Part shown: positions 2,986-32,310 of the stretch, in pieces | How the letters are laid out: every line of letters begins with the position of its first letter | Position numbering within the stretch: position 1 is the first letter of the stretch | From: a virus | DNA length: 40,003 nt | Virus record (IMG/VR): IMGVR_UViG_3300019890_000012 | Span: 1 to 40,003 of that record | Strand: one strand, 5' to 3' | Translations under genes and position numbers: made by a program | The notes under the pieces: generated by a model | What the model was told of the DNA's origin: nothing | The model's input: only the letters and a program-made list of their open reading frames with translations | The model's database searches: none

Positions 2986-3059
2986 TGGTTGCACCGGTTG
3001 GAGTTGAACCAACTACTTCGGCTTATGAGACCGACGTGATACCGTTTCACTACGGAACA
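2986..3059 (-). tRNA. tRNA-Met (anticodon CAT)
   Basis: The minus strand folds as a 74-nt tRNA with encoded CCA. The acceptor arm is TGTTCCG/CGGTGCA with one T-T mismatch and one G-T pair. The D arm is GTGA/TCAC with GG in the loop. The anticodon arm is TCGGT/GCCGA with loop CTCATAA. The variable loop has 4 nt, the T arm is GTTGG/CCAAC with loop TTCAACT, then discriminator A and CCA. The anticodon is CAT, so it reads Met, or Ile if the C is lysidine-modified. It sits inside the late operon between scaffold and capsid genes and would have to be cut out of that transcript. Confidence 0.85.
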
Positions 3060-10120: not shown

Positions 10121-10149
10121 TTGACAAACGGGACTACTGGATATATACT
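10121..10149 (+). promoter_or_regulatory. Strong sigma-70-type early promoter
   Basis: TTGACA at 10121-10126, a 17-base spacer and TATACT at 10144-10149 are close to the housekeeping consensus. Transcription should start about seven bases later, at the A of the ATG at 10156, so the first mRNA would be leaderless. GGATATA heptamers (either strand) lie at 10072, 10106, 10139 and 10174, two of them overlapping or flanking the promoter, as expected for operator sites. Confidence 0.75.
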
Positions 10150-12898: not shown

Positions 12899-12930
12899 GC
12901 GGGAGTGTAGGGACTGGAGAGGGGGACACT

Positions 12931-13173
12931 ATGAAACACTTAAAAGTTTTGGTACTCGTTGCGAGTATAGCGGTAGTGGGACATAGCCGGGAGATGCAAT
13001 ATCCCCCGGTCTATGACAATCCCCCGGCGGCGTCCGCCCCGGCGTCAAGCGGCAATGGTCAACTTGTCCGGGGGCTAGTCCTGGGCGCGGTCATTGTTGC
13101 GCTAGTGAGCTATGTCTGGCATGTGCATAAGCGCGTTAAGGTTCACCGTGAGGAGATTAGGTATCATATATGA
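12931..13173 (+). CDS. Small membrane protein (80 aa)
   Basis: 80 aa from the ATG at 12931, chosen because GAGAGGGGG precedes it. It has a hydrophobic N-terminus (LKVLVLVASIAVVG) that could be a signal peptide or first membrane span, a Pro/Ala/Ser-rich middle, and a second span (GLVLGAVIVALVSYVW) followed by a basic tail. Two spans and a charged end would allow a holin or a lysogeny-expressed membrane factor. Its place just before excisionase and integrase favours the latter, but this is inference. Confidence 0.55.
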   Translation: MKHLKVLVLVASIAVVGHSREMQYPPVYDNPPAASAPASSGNGQLVRGLVLGAVIVALVSYVWHVHKRVKVHREEIRYHI

Positions 13174-13385
13174 GAACATGGAAATGTACGTGTACCGACC
13201 CTACCAAGACCGTGATATGCGTAGTGTGCGCGGCGGCAATGACGGGCTATCAACCGTCGACTATCTACAATAAAGCTGAAGCGCATGAGATACCTTCCGT
13301 GCCCCTGTCAAAACGGAAGCGTGTTTTCTTACGTGAATCCATTTTGTACTGGATTAAAGGACTGGAGACGGGCCTTGCAAGCTAA
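13170..13385 (+). CDS. Excisionase-like DNA-binding protein (HTH_17/AlpA type)
   Basis: 71 aa, coupled by ATGA to the previous gene. The N-terminus has a Cys cluster (WKCTCTD, CVVCAAA) that could bind zinc. Residues about 27-65 match a winged helix-turn-helix of the excisionase family: YQPSTIYNKAEAHEIPSVPL, then KRVFLRESILYWI. Located 300 bases upstream of integrase and near attP, it is the best candidate for the recombination directionality factor. The zinc-like N-terminal addition is unusual for this family. Confidence 0.65.
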   Translation: MRTWKCTCTDPTKTVICVVCAAAMTGYQPSTIYNKAEAHEIPSVPLSKRKRVFLRESILYWIKGLETGLAS

Positions 13386-13410
13386 CCGGACTTGGGGCAT
13401 ACTAATACCA

Positions 13411-13677
13411 ATGACTACAAAACTCCAATGGTCGATTTTATTCCTGTGGTGCGTGGTAGGTACTGCGAACCAATCGCGGCACCCATTGGCGTGCTTCGAT
13501 TTGAAGAACGACTGCACGACTGCGATAGCAAGCGGGGATTACGGGGCCTATGTAGGGTGCCGGAAATTTTCTGAAAAATCCATGCAATCTAAATCGCCGG
13601 ACTACAATATCAGTACCACGCAAGCGCAGTCATGTATCGCCGGGGGAATGAACCCGGACTGCACGCCACGCCGATAG
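13411..13677 (+). CDS. Secreted Cys-rich protein with virion-protein-like C-terminus
   Basis: 88 aa. The first 20 residues (MTTKLQWSILFLWCVVG) look like a signal peptide; the mature part has five further Cys, suggesting disulfides in the periplasm. The C-terminal segment YNISTTQAQSCIAGGMNP closely matches YGINTTQSQSLIAGGLNP, residues 5-22 of the ejection-type protein at 30154-31341: 13 of 18 positions are identical. It lies between excisionase and integrase, a lysogeny location. Inference: a superinfection-exclusion decoy. The start is chosen by the signal peptide, since its ribosome site is weak. Confidence 0.6.
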   Translation: MTTKLQWSILFLWCVVGTANQSRHPLACFDLKNDCTTAIASGDYGAYVGCRKFSEKSMQSKSPDYNISTTQAQSCIAGGMNPDCTPRR

Positions 13678-13689
13678 GAGTTTGCTATA

Positions 13690-14910
13690 ATGTCCGACAT
13701 GGCAAGACATACACACGCGCCGGGATGGAAGGACGTACGCAAAAAGCCATCCGGCAAATGGGAAGCACGATGGATTGACGAGACCGGGGCCGTCAAGGGC
13801 CGGTCATTCGTTGATAAGGCGGTCGCTGCCAAACTAGCGGACGACATGGCGCGAGAATCTGAACGCGCTGCCGTCGGACTAGGCGTGACGCATAAGCCAA
13901 TCGTCAACGCGCTCGCGGCATTTCAGGACCGGCGGCTTGATCCTAAGACGGTCGATCTAAACGGGCGTCGCATGAAGGAATTTCTTTTGGCATTCCCCGC
14001 GCTTACATTGGTCGATCAAATCACCGACACGCATATCAATACTTTTGATCGGATGTTAGAGGCCAAGGGTTGTAACCCCGGCGGTCGCAATCACCATTTA
14101 AGAATCGTTCGTACGTTCTGCAAATTCTGCCGGGATAAAAATTGGTTGCCAACTAATCCCTTTCTAAATTTCAAGATGCCGAAATCAGATTTCGAGGGCC
14201 GCGCTTGCACCGAAGAAGAGTTTGAGCGTATGTGCTCTATCGGATGGGTGGGCGGCAATAAGATTTCGGACACCTACGGCATAGGGTGGCAAGGTGGCAA
14301 CCAATACAAAGACGTGGACTTATGGCTACGCCGGGCGTTCCGCTTTGGCCGGGAGACCATGCTACGGGTTAGCCAAGTGTGGAAGCTCACGCCGGAAGAT
14401 TTCAGAGAGCCCGGCGAGATTCGTGTGAAGGGTATCAAGGGCCAAGAGAGCGAATGGAAGCCATTGACCGAGATTGCTCTAGAGGTCTTACGGGAGTTAT
14501 TGCAGGTCACTAAGCCGGGGCAACGGTTCTTTAGCTATTGGTCAAGCGTCGCGTCCCTACAGCAAGCGGTCCAGAAGAAAGCTACGCGGGTAGGCTTGAA
14601 AGGTCTGCGGTTCCATGACGTGTGCAAGGTCACGCGGGTTAGCCAGTTAGACGCGGCGGGGTTCTCAATCAAAGAGATTTCGCAGGTGAGTAACACAACC
14701 CCGCGCACTCTGCTTGCCCACTATATCAAGCCGGACAAGCAAAAGACGTTCGATAAATACCGGGCGTTTGCCCAAGCCAGACCCGCCTCAGACCCGCCGG
14801 AGACCAAATTAAGCGGGAATCTAGGGGTTTCGCAGCCACAAGGAGGAATAGAATCGACAACCGATAATACGCAAAACGGCTCCACTTCTCGACAAATTTC
14901 TAACCTCTGA
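13690..14910 (+). CDS. int: Tyrosine-family integrase
   Basis: 406 aa with AGGAG nine bases before the ATG. The N-terminal arm-binding region is basic, a SAM-like core-binding domain spans roughly residues 65-165, and the catalytic domain follows. Visible catalytic residues are Arg near 225 (in TMLRVSQVW), Lys in the RVKGIKGQE hairpin, His near 309 (FHDVCKVTR) and the Tyr nucleophile near 345 (AHYIKP). The usual HxxR arginine is not at the normal place; Lys or a shifted Arg stands there. It would integrate the genome at the attP beside it. The C-terminus has a Pro/Ser/Thr-rich extension. Confidence 0.88.
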   Translation: MSDMARHTHAPGWKDVRKKPSGKWEARWIDETGAVKGRSFVDKAVAAKLADDMARESERAAVGLGVTHKPIVNALAAFQDRRLDPKTVDLNGRRMKEFLLAFPALTLVDQITDTHINTFDRMLEAKGCNPGGRNHHLRIVRTFCKFCRDKNWLPTNPFLNFKMPKSDFEGRACTEEEFERMCSIGWVGGNKISDTYGIGWQGGNQYKDVDLWLRRAFRFGRETMLRVSQVWKLTPEDFREPGEIRVKGIKGQESEWKPLTEIALEVLRELLQVTKPGQRFFSYWSSVASLQQAVQKKATRVGLKGLRFHDVCKVTRVSQLDAAGFSIKEISQVSNTTPRTLLAHYIKPDKQKTFDKYRAFAQARPASDPPETKLSGNLGVSQPQGGIESTTDNTQNGSTSRQISNL

Positions 14911-14925
14911 CGGGTGGGAATTTAT

Positions 14926-14958
14926 CGCGGGGTGGAGCAGCCTGGTAGCTCGTCGGGC
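14926..14958 (+). other. attP: Candidate attP core: 5' half of initiator tRNA
   Basis: These 33 bases equal the first 33 positions of the bacterial initiator tRNA as I know it from E. coli (acceptor 5' strand, D arm, start of the anticodon stem). They begin 15 bases after the integrase stop, the normal place for attP. Identity ends before the anticodon. A CGGTTCAAAT segment like the tRNA T loop stands at 15019-15028. The likely attB is the host initiator tRNA gene. Confidence 0.7.
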
Positions 14959-26207: not shown

Positions 26208-26856
26208 AAAAACTACTAGCTTTATTGCTGCTCACGTCGACCTGTTATGGGGGGGCACCACGCAGCAACACGTTAATAACGCAAAGTCGATCACTGTGCT
26301 AGTTACTAGTGAGGGCTTTTTGGGCGGAGGTCGCGGGAGCGGCGTTCTGATCGATAGCCAAACGGTTCTCACCTGTGCTCACATGGCCGAGAGCTACGAC
26401 GATGAGTTATTCATCTACACCTATCCAATAGGCAAAGTGACAAAGGCTAGTGTGCTATTCGTTGACCCCGCGAGCGACTTAATGCTGCTCAAACTCGCCA
26501 CACCGGTTAAAGCGCCCCGCTATGCGAAATTTGCGGAGAGCTACGACGGCGAACCTATCACAATTATCGGCAATGCGCTTGGGAGTATGAAATGGCTAGT
26601 TTCACGTGGGATTATCGCGGGAATGGAGCGCCAATACGTGCTTACCGACGTGCAGGTTAACCCCGGCAATAGTGGTGGCCCATGGATCGATGAAAACGGC
26701 TACGTGGTTGCGATTACGGATTGGGGCATTGACCCGAAACGCGGTCCCGGCGTCACTGGCGGCATTTCTGCGGCCAAGATCAAAGCCTTTATCAAAGCGT
26801 ACAAGTCTTCGCTGAATTTCCGCGCAATGCTCATGAAGTTGCTTGGAGGTCACTAA
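26204..26856 (+). CDS. Secreted trypsin-like serine protease, signal peptide in another frame
   Basis: GCGGAGG precedes ATG 26204, which encodes MKKLLALLLLTSTCYGG, a good signal peptide, but that frame stops near 26302. The protease frame is -1 to it and open through the join; the caller's GTG at 26296 has no ribosome site. Between them lies G7 (26249-26255), where one -1 slip would fuse the two. The protease has His29, Asp61 and Ser126 (GTG numbering; TCAHMAE, PASDLML, GNSGGP), as in DegP-like enzymes. It may be made by frameshifting, phase variation, or a read error may have split it. Confidence 0.7.
26249..26255 (+). promoter_or_regulatory. G7 slip site between signal peptide and protease
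   Basis: Seven G's after TTAT. In the signal-peptide frame two GGG codons are read, and a -1 move in the second keeps perfect pairing and enters the protease frame, giving GGC next. The tract is also a classic site for phase variation or sequencing slips. Confidence 0.5.
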
Positions 26857-28455: not shown

Positions 28456-28673
28456 GACAGCCCCTTTGCGATTGCATTAGCTTTCCCGATTCCGGGGAAT
28501 TTCTTGTGTACGGCGGCGCGTACCTTAGCTTTCTCAGCCGAGGAACCAAATTGGCTCACCCGTGCGAGCGCGTTGCGTGCGTGGTTGGCATCGTTAATCG
28601 GATAGGCGCGTTTGCCCGGCTCCGCGAACGATTTTGCAGCTAAATGGTTTCGAGTATCACTAGTTAGTTTCAT
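28452..28673 (-). CDS. DUF6582-like small phage protein (73 aa)
   Basis: 73 aa with the common phage pattern AKSFAEPGKRAYPINDANHA, RNALARVSQFG and VRAAVHKKFPGIG. It is basic and helical; family members occur near virion genes in many phages, function unknown. The family number is from memory. It overlaps the internal-virion gene by four bases. Confidence 0.65.
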   Translation of the reverse strand: MKLTSDTRNHLAAKSFAEPGKRAYPINDANHARNALARVSQFGSSAEKAKVRAAVHKKFPGIGKANAIAKGLS

Positions 28674-30154
28674 TTGTTTTCGTCCTCGTCTGCCATCAAT
28701 CCCGCAGCGATTCCCTTAGCCGCCGGAGCCATCGTACCCGCCTTCATTGCATTTCCTGCCTCAGTCATAGCGCCCGGAAGATCAGCCGCATTATGCAGCC
28801 CGCGAGCGAGCGCCAAAGTGCCATATTTGCGGCCAAAGAAGTCACCGGCAGCCGCAGCCGCCACGCCGGGATTCCCGGTAGCAATTCCAGCGCCGCCCAC
28901 TGCCGTACGGACAACTGGCACCGCGTTCTTGGCCGAGAGGCCGGAGCGTACTTGTGAGTTGAGCGTCCCGCGAATCTGTGCTAGTTTGCTATAGGCGTCA
29001 CGGAGTTGCTGAAAAGGGGCCACATTATCCCCGCTCGCAGCTAGTAATTTCTCTGCTTGATTATCAATCGAATCGCGCACCGCAGAGGCCGCGTGCTGAT
29101 AAACTTGCTCGCCGGTGTCTTCGGCTAGTCGTTGCAGCGCACCTTTGACCGCGTTCGCACGCTCCCACGGTAGCTTGTTCAAAATTCCGTCACTATCCAT
29201 AGCTTCCGATTTCAAGGTTTCGAGGGCCTTGTTCACGGCGGCATTGTTCATGGCCTGGGCGCTTGCCTCGCCCGGAGGGATAATTTGGCCGGAAGCATTG
29301 CGGATATACATGCCTTCTAGCTCTTTGGCGGTCTGCGCCGGGTCATAAAGCTTGCCGGTTTGAGTCAAATTCTCTAGTTGGTCCCCGATAGCCTTACCCA
29401 CGGTCTGCATCTGCGCGTCCGCGTGTTTCAATTGCTCCAGGGGGGTCATATTGTCCATGGAGAAAATGGGTTTATCGAAAAGGCCCATTTCGGAGGGTAC
29501 TTCCGTATCTGTGGGACTAGGAGCCACTTCGGGCGCTTTCGGCCCTGAAACAGGGGTTTCCGGGGCAGCCACGGCGGTTTCTGCGGGCGCGGGCAATTCT
29601 GGCGTGCCAGAGGATAGCTCTTTGACGGTGCTTTCGCTCGCCGGAACTATATCCGCAGCTTCAGTGGCCGCTTTGGGAGCGCCATTGGTGATATCCATAA
29701 TGGCTTGCTGGACTTCGGGGTGCGGATTCATAGCGTAATGCGTGGCGTCATCAACCACACTTTTTGCACGTAAAGCGTCTTCCGGTAGGTTTTTCCAGCC
29801 CGCCGGGATCAAACTACCAATTTTGTCACCCCACGATTCTAGTGTAGGACCCATGCCCTCGGTCATTGCTCCAACGCCCTTCATGCCGAGACCGGCCAAC
29901 CCTTTTAGGAGGTTTGCGCCGCCATAGACAGCACCGGCATCATTGCCAATTTTCGTAACCATTTCGGCTGCTTTTTGTTCAGGCGGGGCCGTCTCACCGT
30001 AAACTCCCGGCTCGATTTGTTCCGCATTATCGATTTGGGCTTTATATTGGGGATATTTGGCAATAACCTTGGACGCAAGTTCTGTATCGTCCAAATTGTC
30101 ATACGCGCCGGGGTACTTAGCGCGAACCTTAGAAGCTAATTCGGCAAATGTCAT
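28670..30154 (-). CDS. Putative internal virion / ejection protein (494 aa)
   Basis: 494 aa. It opens with two tandem copies of a short unit (ELASKVRAKYP and ELASKVIAKYP), then Ala/Gly-rich helix-forming stretches with amphipathic segments (GGANLLKGLAGLGMKGVGAM) and a Pro/Glu-rich middle. Such proteins are ejected with the DNA and cross or insert into membranes. Its start overlaps the stop of the 395-aa gene (TAATG). Identification is by composition and position. Confidence 0.6.
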   Translation of the reverse strand: MTFAELASKVRAKYPGAYDNLDDTELASKVIAKYPQYKAQIDNAEQIEPGVYGETAPPEQKAAEMVTKIGNDAGAVYGGANLLKGLAGLGMKGVGAMTEGMGPTLESWGDKIGSLIPAGWKNLPEDALRAKSVVDDATHYAMNPHPEVQQAIMDITNGAPKAATEAADIVPASESTVKELSSGTPELPAPAETAVAAPETPVSGPKAPEVAPSPTDTEVPSEMGLFDKPIFSMDNMTPLEQLKHADAQMQTVGKAIGDQLENLTQTGKLYDPAQTAKELEGMYIRNASGQIIPPGEASAQAMNNAAVNKALETLKSEAMDSDGILNKLPWERANAVKGALQRLAEDTGEQVYQHAASAVRDSIDNQAEKLLAASGDNVAPFQQLRDAYSKLAQIRGTLNSQVRSGLSAKNAVPVVRTAVGGAGIATGNPGVAAAAAGDFFGRKYGTLALARGLHNAADLPGAMTEAGNAMKAGTMAPAAKGIAAGLMADEDENK

Positions 30155-31341
30155 TAGAGGATTCCCATAGGATCGTTGGAACTAGCTGCAACCGGTGCCG
30201 GTGCACTTTGGGCCGCGCCCACTTCGGGACGGGGTACGCCGCTGCCAATAGGCATGAGATTGTGGCCGACGGTCGACTGCACGGCTGCCGAGGGGCTTTC
30301 TTTATGCTCTGCGGCATCAAGCGCCTTTTGGCGGGTTTGTTCCCACCATGTAGGATCGCCTTCAACCACGTCTTGAAAGCCTTGCGCGTAGAAATCCATG
30401 AGACCGGTGAACCGACGCACTAGTTCATCGTTCAAACCGTCAATAATCCCGCCTAGTTTCGTGCGGATATCATCGAGTGGCAGACCTTTGATAATTCCAG
30501 TCCAAGAACCGAGCGTTCCAAGGATATCGGAGAGCTTCGTGCTGTACTCGGTCTTCAAAACTTCGTCTTCGCTTGGCACGCCGCCCGTAAAGACAGCCGC
30601 GAGACCAATAGCAATCTGCTTCAAGTCCTGTTTGGTCAAATTAGGGGTGCTGTGCAACCGTTGAGATTCCGTGGAGCACCGGTACAAGCCCTGAGAGAGC
30701 CAGTTACCGCGAGCCGCTTTTAACTGAGTAGCAATTAGCGTAACTAGCTGAGTTTTACGCTTTTGGTCGGCAGCGCCGGACTTGTCACCGGCAGTTTGAA
30801 CGCTAGGCGGGCTATTCGAGCGAACGTACGAGTGGCCGCCTTCAGTGTCCTCAATTTCTTGGATCATAGAACCCTTGGGATAGGGTTTACCGTTCTCGTC
30901 CATCTGCGAACCGTCGGCTTCAAACGCTGCACCTTCGCCCAATCTACCGGGTTTGGAGACATGCAGCGCCGTCACTAGTCGGTGGATAGCGTCTTGGCTC
31001 ACAACTTCCGGCCAATTGTCTTTTGCATCCTGCAAAATCTGAGCTTTTTGATCGTCGTCTAGATTGCTAGAGGCAGCCGCCGCTTTCAGGTCGGTAAGAG
31101 CCTGGGCTTTAGGAACAAGTCCCTTCTCAGCCTCAAGGCCGCCCTCTTCGTCAACGCCCGTAACCATCTTGGCTTGCTTGGCCTTTTCAACGGCTTGCTG
31201 AACGAGCGCCGCTTGCTCCGCCTGTTTTTGCTGATTGGAAACCATCATGTCGCCAATAGTCTGTGAGGGGTCATTGGGATTTAACCCACCCGCGATTAGC
31301 GACTGACTTTGCGTTGTATTGATTCCATAGTTATCAGACAT
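30154..31341 (-). CDS. Putative internal virion / ejection protein (395 aa)
   Basis: 395 aa, starting MSDNYGINTTQSQSLIAGG. Residues 5-22 recur almost unchanged in the secreted protein at 13411-13677. The middle is an Ala/Gln/Lys-rich coiled coil, then mixed helices and a Pro/Gly end. Small repeated QSQS/NPND residues suggest a flexible N-terminus that might lead the ejection. It lies between a zinc-ribbon gene and the 494-aa gene. Confidence 0.6.
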   Translation of the reverse strand: MSDNYGINTTQSQSLIAGGLNPNDPSQTIGDMMVSNQQKQAEQAALVQQAVEKAKQAKMVTGVDEEGGLEAEKGLVPKAQALTDLKAAAASSNLDDDQKAQILQDAKDNWPEVVSQDAIHRLVTALHVSKPGRLGEGAAFEADGSQMDENGKPYPKGSMIQEIEDTEGGHSYVRSNSPPSVQTAGDKSGAADQKRKTQLVTLIATQLKAARGNWLSQGLYRCSTESQRLHSTPNLTKQDLKQIAIGLAAVFTGGVPSEDEVLKTEYSTKLSDILGTLGSWTGIIKGLPLDDIRTKLGGIIDGLNDELVRRFTGLMDFYAQGFQDVVEGDPTWWEQTRQKALDAAEHKESPSAAVQSTVGHNLMPIGSGVPRPEVGAAQSAPAPVAASSNDPMGIL

Positions 31342-31480
31342 TTTCGGCTCCCTTACTAAATCCCACCGTCTTAAATTCGACTCCGACTAGCAACCCGCAC
31401 TTATAGCACCTGCCTAACATCGTCGTAATCCCATGCCAATGAATGTCGCACGTTTCACATACCCATTCGACGAGATACAT
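31334..31480 (-). CDS. Small zinc-ribbon protein (48 aa)
   Basis: 48 aa from ATG 31480, which shares a base with the TAA of the preceding gene (TAATG). CETCDIHWHG and GRCYKCG form a four-Cys zinc site. It overlaps the start of the 395-aa gene by eight bases. It is a rare zinc-ribbon insertion between two ejection-protein genes. A longer upstream frame has no start signal. Confidence 0.6.
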   Translation of the reverse strand: MYLVEWVCETCDIHWHGITTMLGRCYKCGLLVGVEFKTVGFSKGAENV

Positions 31481-32310
31481 TAGATTAACCCGGCAATATC
31501 TCCAGCCCCGCCCCCACCGCCACCAAATGCGCCGAGACCGGCTTGAATGCCGGAGAGTCCAAGGTCCGCAACTCCATTCCAAACCTGATTTTGTTGCGCG
31601 TTGCGCGTCACCGCGTTTTGATACGCGTTGTTAGCGGCCACACCCTGAGCGCCGAGCGTCGCACTTGTTTGCTGACTGTTTTGATTAATTAAGTCGGCTA
31701 GTTGAGTGGTGAGCGCCATATTTCCGCTAGAAAGAATCTGCGTGGCCTGGGCTTTCGACATGCCAAACAAATTCGTGAACATAGAATCGTCCATGCTCGC
31801 AACGGTCTTCATAGCTGAAGCTGAGGCATCCTGGCCCGCTTTGGTTTGCTGTGCGTCTACTCCGGCAGCCGCTTGACCGTTTTGCTGCGCCGCATTCACA
31901 TAGGGTTGAGCTAGTGCAACACCGGCATTCCCACGTCCAAGTCCGCCAGTGGCCGCCATAGCGTTTCGGATTGCATCCTGAGTCCCCGGCACGGTGGAAT
32001 AGATAGCGGTTTTATCGGCAGTCTTTTGCGCGTTAGCTGCATCACTATTTGGGCCATAGAGCGAAGAAATCTTAGACATGAGATCATTGCCAACGCCAGT
32101 AATACCGGATTGATACGCACCCCCGGCGGCATTGTTAGAGTTCATGTATTGCGCGAGCAATTTCTGCACGTTATCTGGCAAGCCGTTAATAAGCTGCTTT
32201 TGGTACGTACCGGAGTTGCTGATCGTGCTCAGTAAAGGAGCAATATCCACCGTCGGCAAACTTTGGCCGCCGCCGATCAAACCGCTAATAATACTTGTAA
32301 GTCCTGGCAT
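31480..32310 (-). CDS. Putative DNA ejection protein (276 aa)
   Basis: 276 aa, dominated by Ala, Gln, Asn, Ser and Gly with little charge. It starts MPGLTSIISGLIGGG, continues with QKQLINGLPDNVQKLLAQYM and ends in a Gly tail (GGGGGGAGDIAGLI). Low charge, amphipathic helices and terminal Gly stretches fit podovirus ejection proteins (gp7-like of P22, by analogy). It heads the three-gene ejection group. Confidence 0.6.
   Translation of the reverse strand: MPGLTSIISGLIGGGQSLPTVDIAPLLSTISNSGTYQKQLINGLPDNVQKLLAQYMNSNNAAGGAYQSGITGVGNDLMSKISSLYGPNSDAANAQKTADKTAIYSTVPGTQDAIRNAMAATGGLGRGNAGVALAQPYVNAAQQNGQAAAGVDAQQTKAGQDASASAMKTVASMDDSMFTNLFGMSKAQATQILSSGNMALTTQLADLINQNSQQTSATLGAQGVAANNAYQNAVTRNAQQNQVWNGVADLGLSGIQAGLGAFGGGGGGAGDIAGLI

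Follow-up and report, generated by a model that had tools for sequence, protein, structure and literature searches.

The viral contig IMGVR_UViG_3300019890_000012 from IMG/VR, analysed here over its whole length of 40,003 bases (the window), contains a small plus-strand gene whose product ends with a copy of the N-terminal motif of an ejection-type virion protein of the same phage. The core open reading frame (ORF) of this gene, hereafter the carrier, runs from an ATG at 13411 to 13677 and encodes 88 amino acids; the virion protein, 395 residues long, is encoded on the minus strand at 30154-31341. Both ORFs exist as described in an earlier first-pass annotation, which had also placed the carrier between an excisionase and an integrase. 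It is indeed tightly packed between an excisionase-like helix-turn-helix (HTH) gene upstream (13170-13385, plus strand; phrog_66, E 0.0019; HTH_17, E 1.7e-5 and 25.4 bits, just below the Pfam cut-off of 27 bits) and a tyrosine integrase gene downstream (13690-14910, plus strand; phrog_1, E 1.2e-22). The carrier stop codon, TAG, overlaps AGGAG, the ribosome-binding site of the integrase. Because a GGAG sequence sits 7 nucleotides before a TTG codon at 13375, translation is likelier to start there than at the ATG at 13411, in which case the gene (13375-13677, plus strand) would begin within the last bases of the excisionase-like gene and encode a protein of perhaps 100 amino acids. The carrier frame has the best codon score of the six, near that of the small neighbouring genes, with the motif included or left out. 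Position and coding character are established, and these sequence features mark the carrier as a genuine small gene within the lysogeny operon.

Directly after the integrase gene, an attP-like core of 33 bp (14926-14958, plus strand) matches part of an enterobacterial tRNA-Met gene at every position. This part is presumably the 5′ portion of the initiator tRNA-Met (tRNA-fMet), and its location in the 5′ half of the tRNA, not at the 3′ end, is unusual. Given the integrase module and the attP-like tRNA sequence, the phage looks temperate, and the carrier is thus encoded in or near a lysogeny module in which an excisionase-like gene, an integrase and an attP-like sequence are all present.

Near its N-terminus the carrier has a hydrophobic segment, LQWSILFLWCVVGTA (residues 5-19; 13423-13467, plus strand), with a Kyte-Doolittle hydropathy of 1.61 over 15 residues, which is likely to be a signal peptide or a membrane anchor. 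The signal peptide announced in the first-pass annotation was judged here from hydropathy, and the candidate cleavage site, between VGTA and NQ, was picked by eye only. No lipobox was seen on inspection of the sequence, L-[AS]-[GA]-C being absent after the hydrophobic segment. Five cysteines follow this segment; Cys75 lies inside the motif copy and Cys84 just behind it, and this pair could close a loop around IAGGMNPD. The carrier has no family match in PHROGs, Pfam or PADLOC (SieA and known defence families included), and searches of phages, plasmids and viral contigs returned no relatives. Its structure model (predicted local distance difference test, pLDDT, 47) is too poor for detailed interpretation, and the fold search was uninformative.

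The motif copy, DYNISTTQAQSCIAGGMNPD, occupies carrier residues 64-83 (13600-13659, plus strand), and the original, NYGINTTQSQSLIAGGLNPN, residues 4-23 of the 395-residue protein (31273-31332, minus strand). The match first noticed, between YNISTTQAQSCIAGGMNP and YGINTTQSQSLIAGGLNP, is identical at 13 of 18 positions, as had been reported, and extends without gaps to 20 residues. Among the 42 proteins of the window, this pair is the strongest (38.4 bits, E 1.5e-6); the runner-up has 25.7 bits, and no pair in 30 shuffled sets exceeds 32.9 bits. Alignment of the carrier with a seven-member profile of the ejection protein by hhalign gives an E of 2.5e-6.

Direct searches with the 395-residue protein found no relatives, and no related prophage emerged when genomes were searched for the capsid; related phages were reached only via terminase and capsid and were then searched for the ejection protein. 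In six of them (G002, G003, G007, G011, G012 and L111), this protein starts with MADNFNINTTQxQxxEAGGLDxNNP or a close form, with an overall identity to the window protein of 26-42%. Across the seven members, residues 1-31 are the best-conserved part of the protein and hold 14 of its 27 invariant columns. These alignments identify the motif, for which ATHNNNACNACNCARNNNCARNNNNNNNNNGCNNNNGGNNTNRAY serves as a pattern, with the conserved N-terminus (MADNFNINTTQxQxxEAGGLD) that the ejection-type protein has in this phage family. The carrier keeps seven of the nine invariant residues that the copied stretch covers.

The first-pass annotation had asked whether such a motif is common in unrelated proteins, and scans of IMG/VR and of about 85,000 GTDB species (one genome each) show the opposite. 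They used a degenerate DNA pattern that fits the seven ejection N-termini and the carrier, widened from a narrower one demanding Asn where most relatives carry Asp. In IMG/VR it retrieved nine stretches, six being ejection N-termini and three belonging to one unrelated 67-residue frame; in GTDB it gave two matches, both unrelated, and no true motif. A profile built from the six relatives, the window's own protein being excluded, scores the carrier at 34.2 bits and the own ejection protein at 45.1 bits, and the best unrelated sequence among 1.2 million six-frame 20-mers reaches 15.8 bits, that one having been fetched by the pattern itself. The motif is, by these searches, specific to this ejection-protein family. 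A chance or convergent resemblance, which the shortness of the match might suggest, is very improbable given these scores, the shuffled sets and a patch of 22 identical nucleotides out of 24 between the carrier motif and G002. Homology and specificity are established, and sequence comparison confirms the carrier motif as a true homologous copy of the ejection protein N-terminal motif.

At the DNA level the two copies in the window have 37 of 60 bases in common, so the duplication is not recent. Their relationship was examined by a placement test on a fixed tree of full ejection proteins, to which the carrier motif was attached under a nucleotide, an amino-acid and a codon model. In all three, its best position is on the window's own branch (approximately unbiased (AU) test, 0.92, 0.96 and 0.90, respectively); the test also allows the G003 tip, the branch of G002 and the one from which the other relatives arise. 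An origin in the own lineage is also indicated by an ATC (Ile) codon common to the carrier and the own ejection gene, where the relatives have a Glu codon. The patch with G002 raised the idea that the copy derives from a different phage, which the tree placement weakens; with an own-lineage origin, the patch is best read as ancestral sequence that has since changed in the own ejection gene. The motif copy thus looks like an in-lineage duplicate rather than a product of convergence. Synonymous sites are saturated in every comparison and amino acids are kept (pN about 0.25), which shows protein-level constraint somewhere between the copies.

These data also bear on a less purposeful origin, in which recombination joined a piece of an ejection gene, taken from this phage or a close unsampled one, to the end of a resident small lysogeny gene, and the copy has no specific role. 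In its favour, only 20 residues are common and a single genome carries the copy; the branch test described below permits neutral evolution of the copy, and an unsampled relative is a possible donor. However, the copied stretch is the conserved motif and hardly more, it lies in frame at the end of a coding-like ORF packed between two genes, and seven of the nine invariant residues covered are kept. We regard recombination debris as rather unlikely.

The protein from which the motif comes is the second of three consecutive minus-strand genes that follow the tail genes, an order kept in relatives. The first encodes a 276-residue small ejection-type protein (31480-32310), gp14/gp7-like by position and size, the second the 395-residue, tunnel-like protein, and the third a 494-residue protein (28670-30154), gp16-like by position; the outer two are assigned by synteny. 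All three genes are found in G002, and the first two in G003, G007, G011 and G012. Searches with the 395-residue protein gave no family hit and did not match any solved or known ejection protein in sequence or fold, which is weak evidence as its model is of low confidence (pLDDT 56, too poor for detail, with an uninformative fold search). In that model, residues 1-28 are unstructured and a long helix follows; an unstructured, conserved N-terminus would fit a short docking peptide. The 276-residue protein, proposed as the partner of the motif, contains in its C-terminal third a conserved segment, LINxNxxTxQTLxAxGIxxNxxYQNAV, faintly like the motif (hhalign E 0.13; one of 100 column shuffles equally good); this likeness is not significant, but the segment could be a partner or a repeat.

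If the motif is a docking peptide, as its conservation makes probable, the carrier might simply serve injection or assembly in its own phage, for example as an assembly factor or a virion-associated protein that uses the same docking site, and not act as an exclusion factor. The distant look-alike in the 276-residue neighbour would agree with this. However, the carrier lies with xis and int on the plus strand and all virion genes on the minus strand, it has a probable signal peptide, and no second copy of the motif is seen in the relatives, which makes such a role unlikely.

Several known systems suggest another role. SieA of P22 is an inner-membrane protein that blocks DNA injection and is escaped via mutations in ejection proteins (PMC10883804). 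Like the carrier as predicted, it is encoded by a prophage and located in the envelope, and its presumed targets are ejection proteins of related phages with short tails (PMC10883804), whereas the carrier has about 88-100 residues and bears the presumed target's own motif. The superinfection exclusion gene ltp of TP-J34 adjoins int within the lysogeny module; its product is small and secreted, prevents the injection of DNA and has been proposed to bind the tape measure protein (PMC3952083). Unlike the carrier, which has neither lipobox nor family match, Ltp is a lipoprotein of Gram-positive hosts that acts on long-tailed phages. Glo of Vibrio cholerae, as named in PMC3952083, is a soluble periplasmic exclusion protein of a Gram-negative host, and the likeness goes as far as that description. 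In T7, the flexible N-terminus of gp15 is thought to be stabilised after ejection by gp14, the small outer-membrane ejection protein (PMC8954989). The 395-residue protein takes the tunnel place in the same small-tunnel-large gene order as T7 gp15 and P22 gp20 (PMC8954989), from which it differs in having no sequence or fold similarity detectable with the tools used. A literature search found no known decoy or mimic of ejection proteins.

Since the tunnel-type motif sits in a probably periplasmic protein of the lysogeny operon, and given the precedents of SieA, ltp and T7 gp15, the carrier may act as a decoy for superinfection exclusion. This is our preferred reading, drawn from sequence and analogy, and it is held tentatively, at somewhat less than an even chance. 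The carrier would have gained the N-terminal docking peptide of the tunnel-type protein by duplication within its own phage lineage and, being predicted to be secreted, would present it in the periplasm of a lysogen that expresses it. On injection of the three ejection proteins by a related phage, the site needed by the N-terminus of the incoming tunnel protein would already be taken by the carrier; this site would lie most plausibly on the small outer-membrane-pore (gp14-like) protein. The trans-periplasmic channel would then fail to assemble and the DNA would be kept out. A more specific version, in which the copy of the docking peptide, closed by a disulphide, sits on the incoming pore as a cap and stops the channel from assembling, the specificity of exclusion thus being copied from the target, is possible but rather doubtful.

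The competition might also take place at the host side, the carrier occupying a host envelope factor that the N-terminus of the ejection protein uses. An alternative of this kind has been discussed for P22 SieA (PMC10883804), and the present data are as compatible with a host factor as with a phage pore protein. Yet the motif is kept throughout a phage family whose members come from different samples, and a host factor of this kind is not known, which leaves exclusion with a host target quite unlikely.

The decoy reading itself has to be set against several observations. The carrier is known in one genome only. Its motif is changed at the conserved Asn4 (to Asp) and Leu20 (to Met). Attachment beside G002 instead of the own copy is allowed by the placement test (AU 0.11-0.18), and a two-ratio codon branch test on the carrier (p 0.25, with saturated synonymous sites) allows neutral evolution after transfer from an unsampled relative. 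The ejection-type label of the 395-residue protein derives from gene order and from the 276/395/494-residue size pattern. Finally, a stable lysogen may not express an int operon. On the other side, the motif copy is in frame at the end of a coding-like ORF within a compact xis-carrier-int operon.

The first-pass annotation had proposed a search for both peptides in related phages, which located the motif at the ejection N-terminus in the six relatives and found no second carrier. G002, G003, G007, G011 and G012 have one copy each, at the ejection gene, and the G009 sequence examined does not include that gene. The integrase has no match in G003, G007 and G011 (55-59 kb) or in the shorter G009, G012 and G002; the last three are fragments, and G002 stops short of the region corresponding to the carrier. 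Integrase searches in phages and plasmids likewise gave no match, hence no related xis-int module for comparison. The linkage of carrier and integrase, seen in one genome against three long ones, is only suggestive.

Neither the mutual recognition of ejection proteins in the periplasm nor the way in which exclusion proteins such as SieA stop them is well understood. If the decoy reading is correct, a natural 20-residue decoy would lead to the docking site around which the channel is organised and would supply a sequence rule for predicting the phages kept out by a lysogen. With or without exclusion, the conserved signature at the N-terminus is a new family marker for ejection proteins.

The virion genes of the contig lie on the minus strand, from 9.9 kb to 1 and then from 39.9 to 28.7 kb. 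Their order is the same as in G002, where the two stretches adjoin, so the contig is circularly permuted. The plus strand holds the integrase module and a replication module with a primase/helicase and a family A DNA polymerase. Directly upstream of the excisionase-like gene, an 82-residue protein without family (12925-13173) has two hydrophobic segments and is possibly a second envelope protein of the same operon. A near-consensus sigma-70 promoter at 10121-10149, TTGACA-17-TATACT, precedes the plus-strand genes leading up to the integrase; such matches are equally frequent in shuffles. A tRNA gene with a CAT anticodon (2986-3059, minus strand) lies within the virion block, upstream of the major capsid gene, between the capsid gene and a gene for a 285-residue protein. 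A trypsin-like protease domain (26296-26856; Pfam Trypsin_2, E 8e-24) is 30-48% conserved in G003, G007 and G011 and resembles the protease part of RT-Protease_XI in PADLOC.
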